A stretch of 64,000 bases of DNA from Ardenticatena maritima (GTDB lineage: Bacteria; Chloroflexota; Anaerolineae; Ardenticatenales; Ardenticatenaceae): the NCBI RefSeq assembly GCF_001306175.1, contig NZ_LGKN01000003.1:806001-870000 (forward strand), read 5' to 3'. The number at the start of each line of letters is the position of its first letter. Position 1 is the stretch's first letter. This document shows positions 24,947 through 28,480 of the stretch, piece by piece. A program made the translations under genes and the position numbers. The notes under the pieces were generated by a model. It searched no databases. It worked only from the letters and a program-made list of their open reading frames with translations, and had not been told where the DNA came from.

Positions 24947-24975
24947 TTGTCATGCGCCTGGTACTCTGCTATCTT
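24947..24975 (+). promoter_or_regulatory. Putative promoter of the sulfur assimilation leader
   Basis: TTGTCA (24947-24952) and TATCTT (24970-24975) with a 17-base spacer. A transcript starting near 24982 would carry the leader peptide about 37 bases downstream. Confidence 0.5.
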
Positions 24976-25018
24976 ATGCACCGTCAACAAACAGATAAGC
25001 CAAACCGTGGGAAACGCC

Positions 25019-25096
25019 ATGCTCGTTTTGCAAAGCATCAACAACATGTGTCTGTGTATCTGTCCGCAGCGGGGGCCTCGACGCCCGCGCGGCTGA
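25019..25096 (+). CDS. Cysteine-rich leader peptide (25 residues) of an attenuator
   Basis: ATG at 25019, TGA at 25094-25096. The peptide contains Met-Cys-Leu-Cys-Ile-Cys, encoded by TGT at 25049, 25055 and 25061. Three alternating Cys codons in a 25-codon frame directly upstream of cysteine-biosynthesis genes is the pattern of a ribosome-mediated attenuator. The antiterminator arm 25070-25078 lies inside the coding region, just after the last Cys codon. The ribosome site is weak (GTGGGA). An ATG at 25046 is an alternative start. Function is inferred from position and structure. Confidence 0.65.
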   Translation: MLVLQSINNMCLCICPQRGPRRPRG

Positions 25097-25144
25097 TGCA
25101 CGGTACACCACGAGCATTGGCCTGAAACGCGCTCAAGGCCCCCG
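25070..25144 (+). promoter_or_regulatory. Antiterminator stem of the sulfur operon attenuator
   Basis: Bases 25070-25078 (CGGGGGCCT) pair perfectly over 9 bp with 25136-25144 (AGGCCCCCG). The second arm contains the whole left arm of the terminator (25138-25144), so the two structures exclude each other. A ribosome stalled at the first Cys codons leaves 25070-25078 free to form this stem. A ribosome moving on to the stop at 25094 covers it and lets the terminator form. Confidence 0.75.
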
Positions 25145-25170
25145 ATACCAACCGGTGCGGGGGCTTTTTT
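25138..25170 (+). terminator. Attenuator terminator upstream of sulfite reductase
   Basis: A 7-bp all-GC/CG stem (25138-25144 with 25158-25164) with a 13-base loop and six T at 25165-25170. It lies 94 bases before the sulfite reductase ATG. Confidence 0.85.
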
Positions 25171-25195
25171 CATACCCTTGGCAGGCAGCGCCCAT

Positions 25196-25224
25196 GCCTC
25201 CGCACCATGCGGAGGCGTTTTGTT
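25196..25224 (+). terminator. Second hairpin with U-rich tail in the sulfur leader
   Basis: A 9-bp perfect stem (25196-25204 with 25208-25216, loop CCA) is followed by GTTTTGTTTG. It could be a back-up terminator or a 5' UTR stabilising hairpin. It has no obvious competing antiterminator. Confidence 0.6.
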
Positions 25225-25263
25225 TGTTGACACGAGCCAACCAACACGTGCGGAGGATTTTGT

Positions 25264-27192
25264 ATGACAACCACACCCTCAACCCTGCCCATTCCCACAT
25301 GGGAAGAGGTGCTCAAACGCAACAGCATTGAACGCCTGAAGCAGGAAAAATTCCCGCTTGACATTATCAACGAACTGCCCGACATGATCGCCAAGGGCTA
25401 CGAAGCCGTGCCCGAAGAGGATATCGTCTTGTTGAACTGGTGGGGGCTTACGCACGATAAACCCAAAATCGGGACGTTCATGGTGCGCATCAAGGTCCCC
25501 GGTGGGCATCTCACCCCACAGCAACTCCGCGGCGTTGCCAAGGTCGCGGAGCAATACGGGCGCGGCTATGCCGAATTGACCACACGCCAGGGCATTCAAC
25601 TGCACTGGGTGCGGTTGGATGATTTGCCGGCGGTTCTGGAAGCCATTCAGGCAACCGGTTTGACGACCGTCGGCGGTGAAGGGGATACCGTGCGCAACGT
25701 AACCGGCTGCCCGGTGGCGGGTATCAGCCGCGATGAACTGTTCGACGTGCAACCCATCATCAAGGAGGTGGCGCGCTATTTCTACGGCAATCCCGACTAC
25801 TCGAACTTGCCCCGCAAACACAAATTCACCATCTCGGCGTGCCGCTTCCAGTGCAACGCGCCCGAAATTCACGATATTGCCCTGATCGGCGTCATCAAAG
25901 ATGGGCGCCCCGGTTTTACGGTGCGCGTCGGCGGGGGGCTTTCCATCCTGCCGCGCATTGCCCGCGACCTGGGGGTTTTTGTCCCCGTGGACAAGACCAT
26001 TGACGTTTTGCGCGCCATTACCGACGTGTGGCAGGAAAACTTGCGCTACCGCCGTAGCCGCGCCAAAGCCCGCATCAAATTCATGATGGATGATTACGGC
26101 CCCGAGGGAGTGCGCCAGATGGTGGAAGAGCGCCTCGGGTATCGGCTGGAAGACGCCGAAGCGCCATCTCCCGAAGGTGAAGAGCATCACCTGGGAATCC
26201 ACCCCCAAAAGCAAGAAGGCTACAATTACGTGGGCGTCCCCGTCCCCATGGGATGGTTCTACAGCCACCAAATGCAGCGCGTCGCCGATATCGTCGAAGA
26301 GGTGGGCGGCGACATTCGTTTCACCCGCCAGCAAAACTTCATCATTGGCTATGTGCCGGAAGAGCGCACGCAATGGCTGGCTGAACAACTCGCCGAGGTG
26401 GGATTGCCTGTGACGATCAACCAGGCATACGGCACTTCGATTGCCTGCACCAGCCATCAATTCTGCAACTACTCGGTTTCGGAAACCAAGGAAAAACTGA
26501 AAGAAATCCTGGAAGTGTTGGACCAGGAATTTGGCGATGCCATTCGCGGGCTGAAAATCCACCTCGATGGATGCCCCCACGCCTGCGCGCACCACTGGGT
26601 GGGCGACATCGGGTTGCAAGGCACCATGGCACGCCAACCCGACGGCTCACTGATTCACGCCTACGACATCACCCTGCGCGGTGGGCTGGGTATCCGTACC
26701 GCCATCGGGAAGCCCATCATCCGCCGCCTGCCCGACGCGGAAACCACGCCGGCGGTCGTGCGGCTGGTACGCGCCTGGCTACACGAACGCGAAGCGCGCG
26801 GGGGCGATGCTGCTTTCACCTTCTACGAATTCGCCCAAGCCCACACCGATGAAGAGTTGAAGGCTATCGCGCTGGGCGAAATTGAGAGCGCCCCTCCCGC
26901 AACCGAAGACGACGAACGCGCCATTCTTGTCCGCGTGCCCGGTCCGCTGCTGCACCTGAGCGGCGGCGCCAACATCATCCGCGCCGAAGGGCGTACCATT
27001 CGCGAGGTCTTTGCTCATGTGGGCAAAACCTACCCCGACCTGCGCGAATACGTGGAAGCCAACGGGCAAGGCGAATCACCATTGCTCAACATTTATGTCA
27101 ACGAAGAAGAAATTGGCTACCTGCAAGGATGGGATACGCCTGTGAAACCGGGCGACCACATCGTCATTTTGCCGGCGCTTGCAGGTGGCTGA
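25264..27192 (+). CDS. Siroheme nitrite/sulfite reductase fused to a ThiS/MoaD-like sulfur carrier
   Basis: 642 residues. The reductase part (about 1-545) has two ferredoxin-like repeats and two siroheme/[4Fe-4S] domains. The cluster ligands are C-X5-C in ACTSHQFCNYS and C-X3-C in DGCPHACAHHW. The neighbour APS reductase indicates sulfite as substrate, reduced by six electrons to sulfide. Residues from about 553 to the end form a beta-grasp (ubiquitin-like) domain ending in LAGG, the same C-terminal Gly-Gly used by ThiS, MoaD and CysO to carry sulfur as thiocarboxylate. The fusion suggests sulfide is handed directly to a carrier for cysteine or cofactor synthesis. A strong start (GGAGGATTTTGT ATG at 25264) follows the attenuator. 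Confidence 0.9.
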   Translation: MTTTPSTLPIPTWEEVLKRNSIERLKQEKFPLDIINELPDMIAKGYEAVPEEDIVLLNWWGLTHDKPKIGTFMVRIKVPGGHLTPQQLRGVAKVAEQYGRGYAELTTRQGIQLHWVRLDDLPAVLEAIQATGLTTVGGEGDTVRNVTGCPVAGISRDELFDVQPIIKEVARYFYGNPDYSNLPRKHKFTISACRFQCNAPEIHDIALIGVIKDGRPGFTVRVGGGLSILPRIARDLGVFVPVDKTIDVLRAITDVWQENLRYRRSRAKARIKFMMDDYGPEGVRQMVEERLGYRLEDAEAPSPEGEEHHLGIHPQKQEGYNYVGVPVPMGWFYSHQMQRVADIVEEVGGDIRFTRQQNFIIGYVPEERTQWLAEQLAEVGLPVTINQAYGTSIACTSHQFCNYSVSETKEKLKEILEVLDQEFGDAIRGLKIHLDGCPHACAHHWVGDIGLQGTMARQPDGSLIHAYDITLRGGLGIRTAIGKPIIRRLPDAETTPAVVRLVRAWLHEREARGGDAAFTFYEFAQAHTDEELKAIALGEIESAPPATEDDERAILVRVPGPLLHLSGGANIIRAEGRTIREVFAHVGKTYPDLREYVEANGQGESPLLNIYVNEEEIGYLQGWDTPVKPGDHIVILPALAGG

Positions 27193-27222
27193 GCCACAAA
27201 ACCAACCGTGAGGAGGAGTCAG

Positions 27223-28014
27223 ATGCCGCAAATCACTTTCGACGACCTGGAATTGGGCGAAATCGCCATCGAACTTGACGACCAGGAGCCGCAAGACGTT
27301 ATCCGCTGGGGGCTGGAAACGTTTGGCGACCGCGTCGCCATCGTCACCTCTTTCCAGATTGATGGGATGGCGGTACTCGACATGGCATACCGCATTCGCC
27401 CCAATGTGCGCGTCATCACCGTGGATACGGGGCGCCTGCCGCAAGAAACATACGCCTTCATCGAAGAAGTACGCGAACGCTACCCGGAAGCGCGCTTTGA
27501 AACCTTCTTCCCGGACGCCGCCGAAGTTGAACGGTATGTCAATGCGTTTGGCTTCAACGGGTTTTACAAAAGCGTGGAACTGCGCTTGCTCTGCTGCCAT
27601 ATCCGCAAAGTGCAGCCCTTGTTGCGAGCGCTCGCCGACGTGGACGCGTGGTTTACCGGGCTGCGTCGCGATCAATGGGCGTCGCGGGCGGCGATCCGCA
27701 AAGTTGAACTCGACCACGACCACAACGCCATCGTCAAAATCAACCCGCTTGCCGACTGGACGGAAGAGGAAGTGTGGGAATATGTGCGCGCCAACAACGT
27801 GCCCTACAACCCGCTGTACGATCAAGGGTACACAAGCATCGGCTGCGCCCCCTGCACGCGCCCCATTCAGCCGGGCGAAGACAACCGCGCCGGGCGGTGG
27901 TGGTGGGAAACAAACGCGCCCAAAGAGTGCGGTATCCACTGCCCCATCGAGACTGGCGGATTTGAACATGAAGTGCATGCGATTTTAGGAGCGAACGGCA
28001 ATGGCCACCACTGA
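27223..28014 (+). CDS. cysH: Phosphoadenylyl/adenylyl-sulfate reductase, APS type
   Basis: 263 residues from the ATG at 27223 (AGGAGGAG upstream). It reduces adenylyl sulfate to sulfite in assimilatory sulfate reduction. The PP-loop region includes IVTSFQIDGM, VITVDTGRLP and TGLRRDQWASRA. The cysteine pairs CC (in LLCCHIRKV) and CAPC (in IGCAPCTRP) are the [4Fe-4S] ligands that mark the APS-using form, and the C-terminal KECGIHC holds the catalytic cysteine. It follows sulfite reductase by 30 bases in the same operon and overlaps the next gene by 14 bases. Confidence 0.95.
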   Translation: MPQITFDDLELGEIAIELDDQEPQDVIRWGLETFGDRVAIVTSFQIDGMAVLDMAYRIRPNVRVITVDTGRLPQETYAFIEEVRERYPEARFETFFPDAAEVERYVNAFGFNGFYKSVELRLLCCHIRKVQPLLRALADVDAWFTGLRRDQWASRAAIRKVELDHDHNAIVKINPLADWTEEEVWEYVRANNVPYNPLYDQGYTSIGCAPCTRPIQPGEDNRAGRWWWETNAPKECGIHCPIETGGFEHEVHAILGANGNGHH

Positions 28015-28480
28015 GACATCCACACCAGACCTGTTTATCGAAGCCGACGCGCGCGATCTTGTTTTGCGCGAAGTGGCGGCGTACTTTCCAAGCGTGCCGC
28101 CTGAACGGCGCAGCGTACTCGACCGCTTAGGGCAACATGTCGAAACGGGGCATGTGCCCCCTGAACTCCAGGGCTTGTTGGGTGAAATTCTGGGGGCGTC
28201 GCTCATGTCCGGACGCTCACGTCGGCTCTATACAGCCGAGGGCGAGCGGCTCTTCACCGAGATTTTTCGACAAACCCCGCAGGGGCGTGAAACAAGTTCG
28301 CAACTTGCATCCATCAATCGGGCGTTGAAAACACTTTCGGGACAAACAATCACCTCGGTGCGCGTGAACATGCGCACATTGGGGCATTTTACCATTACCA
28401 TTGGCACCCCCGTCGCTACCATCACCCTCGCGGTGCGACCAAACGGGGTGGAACTCGAAAGCCTCAACGTGGGCGGTTAG
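28001..28480 (+). CDS. Unknown 159-residue protein in the sulfur operon
   Basis: Starts inside the end of cysH (14-base overlap) with AGGAGCG upstream, so it is translated with the sulfur genes. The N-terminal half is helical and acidic. The C-terminal half is beta-rich (TSVRVNMRTLGHFTITIGTPVATITLAV) and the protein ends in NVGG. There is no signal peptide, membrane segment or metal-binding cysteine. I do not recognise a family. Context suggests a role in sulfate/sulfite assimilation. Confidence 0.75.
   Translation: MATTETSTPDLFIEADARDLVLREVAAYFPSVPPERRSVLDRLGQHVETGHVPPELQGLLGEILGASLMSGRSRRLYTAEGERLFTEIFRQTPQGRETSSQLASINRALKTLSGQTITSVRVNMRTLGHFTITIGTPVATITLAVRPNGVELESLNVGG

Follow-up and report, generated by a model that had tools for sequence, protein, structure and literature searches.

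A candidate cysteine-sensing transcription attenuator upstream of sulfite reductase in Ardenticatena maritima and related Chloroflexota

What does the short, cysteine-rich reading frame ahead of the sulfite reductase and cysH genes of Ardenticatena maritima do? The locus lies in a 64,000-nucleotide (nt) stretch of contig NZ_LGKN01000003.1 (positions 806,001 to 870,000; assembly GCF_001306175.1), hereafter the window; coordinates are positions in the window, and all listed leader elements are on the + strand. The original prediction described attenuation of the trp/his type, with a 25-codon frame (25019-25096) carrying TGT codons at 25049, 25055, and 25061, a 9-bp pairing of 25070-25078 (cgggggcct) with 25136-25144 (aggcccccg), and a U-tailed terminator whose left arm (25138-25144) falls inside the second of these segments. 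Frame and codons agree with the sequence, the two 9-nt segments are perfect complements, and the terminator stem (25138-25144/25158-25164) is followed by six T. From the sequence and its comparison among relatives, the leader is very probably a cysteine-sensing, ribosome-mediated transcription attenuator.

Competing RNA arms and their conservation

At the window locus, the arm just 3' of the Cys codons (A) has two potential partners. One is arm B, which closes a local hairpin and whose lower part pairs with the Cys codons (25054-25060 with 25095-25101); the other is the distant arm C, the window A:C pair being CGGGGGCCT/AGGCCCCCG (Table 1). The 224-nt stretch from 24947 to 25170 is more stable than its shuffles (fold z = -3.13). 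A search for sulfite reductase across 60 relatives and 396 genomes of Ardenticatena's class yielded 13 close orthologues, all 13 preceded by a C-x-C leader. Their leader peptides include MRSYSYQPIANTMCLCICPQRGP, MTYLRPRPVLQCICTKRGQ, and MRLPIRFFTRCVCMRRGH, and the common block is TGY-RTC-TGT followed by a GCGGGGG-like sequence. In these leaders the distance from the first base of C-x-C to the start of arm A is ~14 nt, and the complementary arm C follows ~70-110 nt downstream; A/C pairs in relatives are CGGGGGTTG/CAACCCCCG (loci L005-L007) and GAGGGCAAT/ATTGCCCTC (L008).

A covariance model (R1) that held only the Cys codons and the A:B hairpin was built from 20 sequences, and neither gene content nor arm C entered the search with it. 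R1 matched at E <= 0.01 in 97 of the 396 genomes of the class. Eighty regions around matches were taken and rescored, and ten weak matches, inside genes or without the motif, were excluded from the statistics. Peptides of the family include CICPGRGR, CICIRRGR, and CICMRRGQ, each followed by a stop codon, and CICPERGQ. A strict DNA pattern applied to 84,980 species genomes gave 18 matches, every one with an in-frame leader and every one in Chloroflexota (Ardenticatena, Thermoflexus, Anaerolineales, and Caldilineae), and sampling of the whole phylum gave no convincing case outside the class. Weak matches in other Chloroflexota classes were set aside because they had no C-x-C frame with an ATG.

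Pairing and frame statistics were performed on 45 non-redundant loci with distinct A arms. Own-locus A:C pairing totaled 1136, compared with 844 +/- 23 for permuted arms and downstream regions (z = 12.6, 0/20,000), and since R1 was built without arm C, this pairing is independent of the search. Both comparative checks attached to the original prediction thus gave a positive outcome: the long-range A:C stem covaries among relatives, and TGY-NNN-TGT is present not only in the close orthologues but in 45 of the 45 leaders. Covariation of A:B also exceeded shuffled and slid controls, in an alignment that had been fitted to that structure. An in-frame ATG with an open frame to C-x-C was found in 41/45 leaders, whereas the two remaining frames gave 5 and 16. 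Within C-x-C, the second Cys codon (25061-25063 in the window) is TGT in all 45 leaders, the ratio of TGC to TGT being 79:34 in the window genes and 238:68 in the downstream genes; the first follows normal codon usage.

A conserved local hairpin with a covarying A:B stem could also belong to a metabolite-binding riboswitch or a T-box, the reading frame then being incidental. We consider this highly improbable, however, given the frequency of the in-frame ATG and a conserved block that consists of two Cys codons before sulfur genes. In addition, neither spacing nor sequence between B and C is conserved as it would be for an aptamer, and Rfam, including its T-box and S-adenosylmethionine (SAM) riboswitch families, gave no match in the window at the gathering score and none overlapping the leader in the loci of 20 relatives, where the only match was to an unrelated SAM riboswitch.

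The peptide itself might be the sensor. In that case C-I-C-x-x-R-G would be a TnaC-like arrest peptide that detects a metabolite, free cysteine or another, within the ribosome tunnel instead of uncharged Cys-tRNA. R-G often follows C-x-C, and the stop codon is often near (8 codons from the first Cys in 13/45 leaders). However, R-G is encoded by CGG GGG, i.e., by arm A, and is therefore fixed by RNA pairing, and both the middle codon of C-x-C and the upstream peptide are variable. Moreover, 6/45 leaders stop after C-x-C-x, before the R-G codons, and R-G would accordingly be dispensable. Such a peptide is improbable. The distance from the first Cys codon to the stop is often 4 or 8 codons (19/45), which places the stop just before or just after arm A, and in five leaders that end right after C-x-C-x (L129, L130, L151, L153, and L099) a TAG overlaps the start of A.

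Terminators and the proposed switch

A local U-tailed intrinsic terminator was recognized in 41/78 leaders, vs. 15/213 control stretches. Most other leaders with a U-tract, about 20 more of the 78, use a long-range terminator (8-15 bp), its 5' arm lying directly before C or overlapping it (e.g., GGGCCGACGGCGGCT/AGCCGCCGTCGGCCT-TTTTT at L102). When the test of the long-range design was confined to leaders that lack a local terminator and contain TTTT tracts, it gave z = 4.6; both this subset and the tract rule were altered after inspection of the sequences, so the evidence is weaker than the value suggests. A test of all loci that used a loose U-tract rule gave no signal (z = 0.64). In both the local and the long-range design, A:C would interfere with the terminator.

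At the window locus an attenuator could operate as follows. With ample Cys-tRNA, the ribosome would translate through C-x-C, reach the stop codon, and cover A while C emerges; C would pair with D, transcription would stop at terminator 1, and terminator 2 would form a second barrier. With scarce Cys-tRNA, the ribosome would halt on the Cys codons just 5' of A, opening the A:B hairpin at its base. Free A would then pair with C upon its emergence, blocking terminator 1 and leaving D unpaired. D could next capture E, from which the left arm and part of the loop of terminator 2 are made, as long as this second hairpin is unfinished. Both terminators having been avoided, RNA polymerase would go on to transcribe the sulfite reductase and cysH genes. 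In untranslated RNA, the long A:B hairpin would likewise lead to termination at this locus.

Fold calculations, performed with an assumed ribosome footprint on nascent window RNA ending at 25147-25156, are consistent with such a switch. With a ribosome placed at either of the first two Cys codons, where it covers the RNA upstream of A, the calculated probability (P) of A:C was 0.99-1.00, compared with 0.01-0.07 in free RNA with the same ends. When C was held by A, D:E was calculated to be nearly complete up to position 25213, and terminator 2 displaced it only once finished. The window D:E helix (25154-25164 with 25196-25206) has 11 bp and extends into the loop of terminator 2, an element absent from the original prediction. 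Similar helices occur elsewhere (12 bp at L105, 11 bp at L094, 9 bp at L118, and shorter in others), and a family test confined to D arms that pair with C gave z = 4.7 (0/50,000).

Several results limit or weigh against this account of the leader. The A:C helix at the window locus alone is marginal (p about 0.05 in dinucleotide shuffles), so the window by itself would not settle whether it holds an attenuator; at the level of sequence, the comparison among relatives settles what the single locus leaves marginal. In the calculations, P(A:C) = 0 with a ribosome at the stop codon follows by construction from the masking of A. At equilibrium, both completed terminators outcompete A:C and D:E, and the switch must therefore act kinetically, as attenuators do. 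Most other loci form A:C without a ribosome (mean P 0.81); there, the translating ribosome and not the A:B hairpin would prevent A:C, and occupancy of A by the ribosome is likely the main switch at most of them, which fits the positions of the stop codons near A. In the closest relative (L086), D matches terminator 2 only partly (8 bp). Finally, neither type of terminator was found in about 20 of the 78 leaders, and leaders lacking a recognized U-tailed terminator would suit translational or Rho-dependent control as proposed for mycobacterial cysteine leaders, the hairpins being ordinary terminators. Against such control, arm C is shared by, or interleaved with, a U-tailed terminator in the window and in most relatives, and the A:C pairing, specific to its own locus, lies far from the ribosome binding site; we give this explanation very little weight.

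A more extended proposal is that the six arms act as a domino, in which one stall at the Cys codons leads to A:C, A:C frees D, and D:E forms, disarming two successive terminators, and that this module, sometimes in tandem, coordinates a cysteine/sulfur regulon throughout this Chloroflexota class. We hold this fuller picture to be about as likely as not.

The transcription unit and its sulfur genes

The features of the window locus are given in Table 1. Neither the promoter nor an in-frame internal ATG at 25046, an alternative start immediately 5' of the first Cys codon, had been noted in the original prediction. Transcription is predicted to start near 24982, upstream of the leader frame, and promoters at an equal distance in relatives (TTGACA-N17-TATTAT and TTGACA-N17-TATCAT) are closer to consensus with the same spacer. 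The fusion of a ThiS-like domain to sulfite reductase suggests transfer of sulfide to a thiocarboxylate carrier. Directly 3' of cysH, a 159-amino-acid frame without a Pfam match (28001-28480) may be part of the same operon.

Table 1. Elements of the leader and of the genes behind it, by position in the window.
Feature	Coordinates	Strand	Basis
Predicted sigma-70 promoter, TTGTCA-N17-TATCTT with TG extension (extended-10)	24947..24975	+	prediction
Leader reading frame, MLVLQSINNMCLCICPQRGPRRPRG and stop	25019..25096	+	sequence, family frame test
Regulatory codons TGT CTG TGT ATC TGT (C-L-C-I-C)	25049..25063	+	C-x-C kept in all leaders used
Arm A (GCGGGGGCCTC), pairs with B or C	25069..25079	+	covariation, locus-specific pairing
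Arm B, closes hairpin with A	25084..25101	+	fold; family covariation of A:B
Arm C, putative antiterminator partner of A, holds left arm of terminator 1	25136..25144	+	sequence, pairing tests
Terminator 1, stem 25138-25144/25158-25164 and T6	25138..25170	+	sequence, fold
Arm D (GGTGCGGGGGC), right arm of terminator 1; complementary to E over 11 bp	25154..25164	+	pairing test
Arm E (GCCTCCGCACC), left arm and part of loop of terminator 2	25196..25206	+	pairing test
Terminator 2, hairpin 25194-25218 and T-rich tail	25194..25225	+	prediction
Ribosome binding site GGAGG of first gene	25252..25256	+	sequence
Sulfite reductase with C-terminal ThiS (sulfur carrier) domain, GG end	25264..27192	+	Pfam NIR_SIR, NIR_SIR_ferr, ThiS
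PAPS/APS reductase (cysH)	27208..28014	+	Pfam PAPS_reduct

Downstream genes were typed by Pfam at 67 loci with a usable next gene, and at about 62 of these the next gene was a sulfur or cysteine gene. PALP (cysteine synthase) accounted for 20, sulfite reductase for 18, rhodanese for 18, and sulfur transport for 2, with a Cys/Met enzyme, MetA, TauE, JAB, and DsrE at one locus each; these counts are inflated by closely related genomes, yet still represent several families and three main gene types. The Ardenticatena genome itself contains a second strong leader (MMNKTQAFYTNQRCICIRRGR and stop, at G000:C4:223053; locus L097, G000:C4:218000-224100), and the operon behind it, which encodes a rhodanese, ThiS, a ThiF-rhodanese, and a PALP enzyme, likely serves carrier-dependent cysteine synthesis. 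At four loci (L083, L084, L090, and L091) two leaders lie in tandem, and in most cases each has a separate C arm and terminator. A full-consensus promoter precedes the first leader and none the second, and two attenuators would therefore act on one transcript. Locus L133, which has a cysteine leader, also carries a SAM riboswitch (RF00162) on the opposite strand (L133:3660-3785). The family predicts a cysteine regulon of sulfite reductase, cysteine synthase, rhodanese/sulfur-carrier operons, and transporters in bacteria that are mostly uncultured.

Relation to known leader-peptide systems

Profiles of leader peptides in NCBIfam gave no match for five of the leader peptides up to E = 10. In a literature search confined to open-licence papers we found no report of such an attenuator in Chloroflexota, in line with the expectation in the original prediction that a classical antiterminator attenuator would be new in this lineage. 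Proteobacteria and Actinobacteria account for most known cases of leader-peptide attenuation. Naville and Gautheret (2010; PMC2965389), who described a transcription attenuator of this kind in Firmicutes, with histidine leader peptides ahead of hisS/hisZ, knew such systems only from these two phyla before their own case. The Chloroflexota family, another putative leader-peptide attenuator outside Proteobacteria but with a different amino acid and in a different phylum, would extend this range.

As in mycobacteria and other Actinobacteria, cysteine and sulfur genes are preceded by short upstream frames that contain Cys codons. A comparative study of actinobacterial cysteine leader frames found no terminators and suggested Rho (Seliverstov et al., 2005; PMC1262725), and a 2026 paper cites mycobacterial cysteine-leader genes as being under translation attenuation (PMC13236596, citing Canestrari et al., 2020). 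The described bacterial cysteine cases are without a classical terminator. In contrast to the consecutive Cys run of the mycobacterial leaders, which have no intrinsic terminator, Chloroflexota leaders carry C-x-C(-x-C) and intrinsic terminators, and they differ from the actinobacterial polycysteine leaders in their conserved A:B hairpin and covarying antiterminator.

With the trp, his, and leu attenuators of enterobacteria, the Chloroflexota leaders share a peptide rich in the end-product amino acid of the operon and a mutually exclusive antiterminator and U-tailed terminator between which the position of the ribosome would decide. The attenuator part of the original trp/his-type description is supported by the Cys codons and the covarying A:C stem. 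Its topology has to be revised: in the four-arm trp leader (1:2, 2:3, 3:4) the antiterminator is 2:3, whereas here A, the 5' arm beside the regulatory codons, and not a 3' arm, pairs with C in the window and nearly all loci, and the window has two terminators instead of one. The Chloroflexota leaders would further differ in sensing cysteine, in a second terminator linked through D:E, and, at some loci, in tandem arrangement. The size of the family makes it a ready comparative set for a different attenuator topology, a possible two-terminator cascade, and tandem copies.
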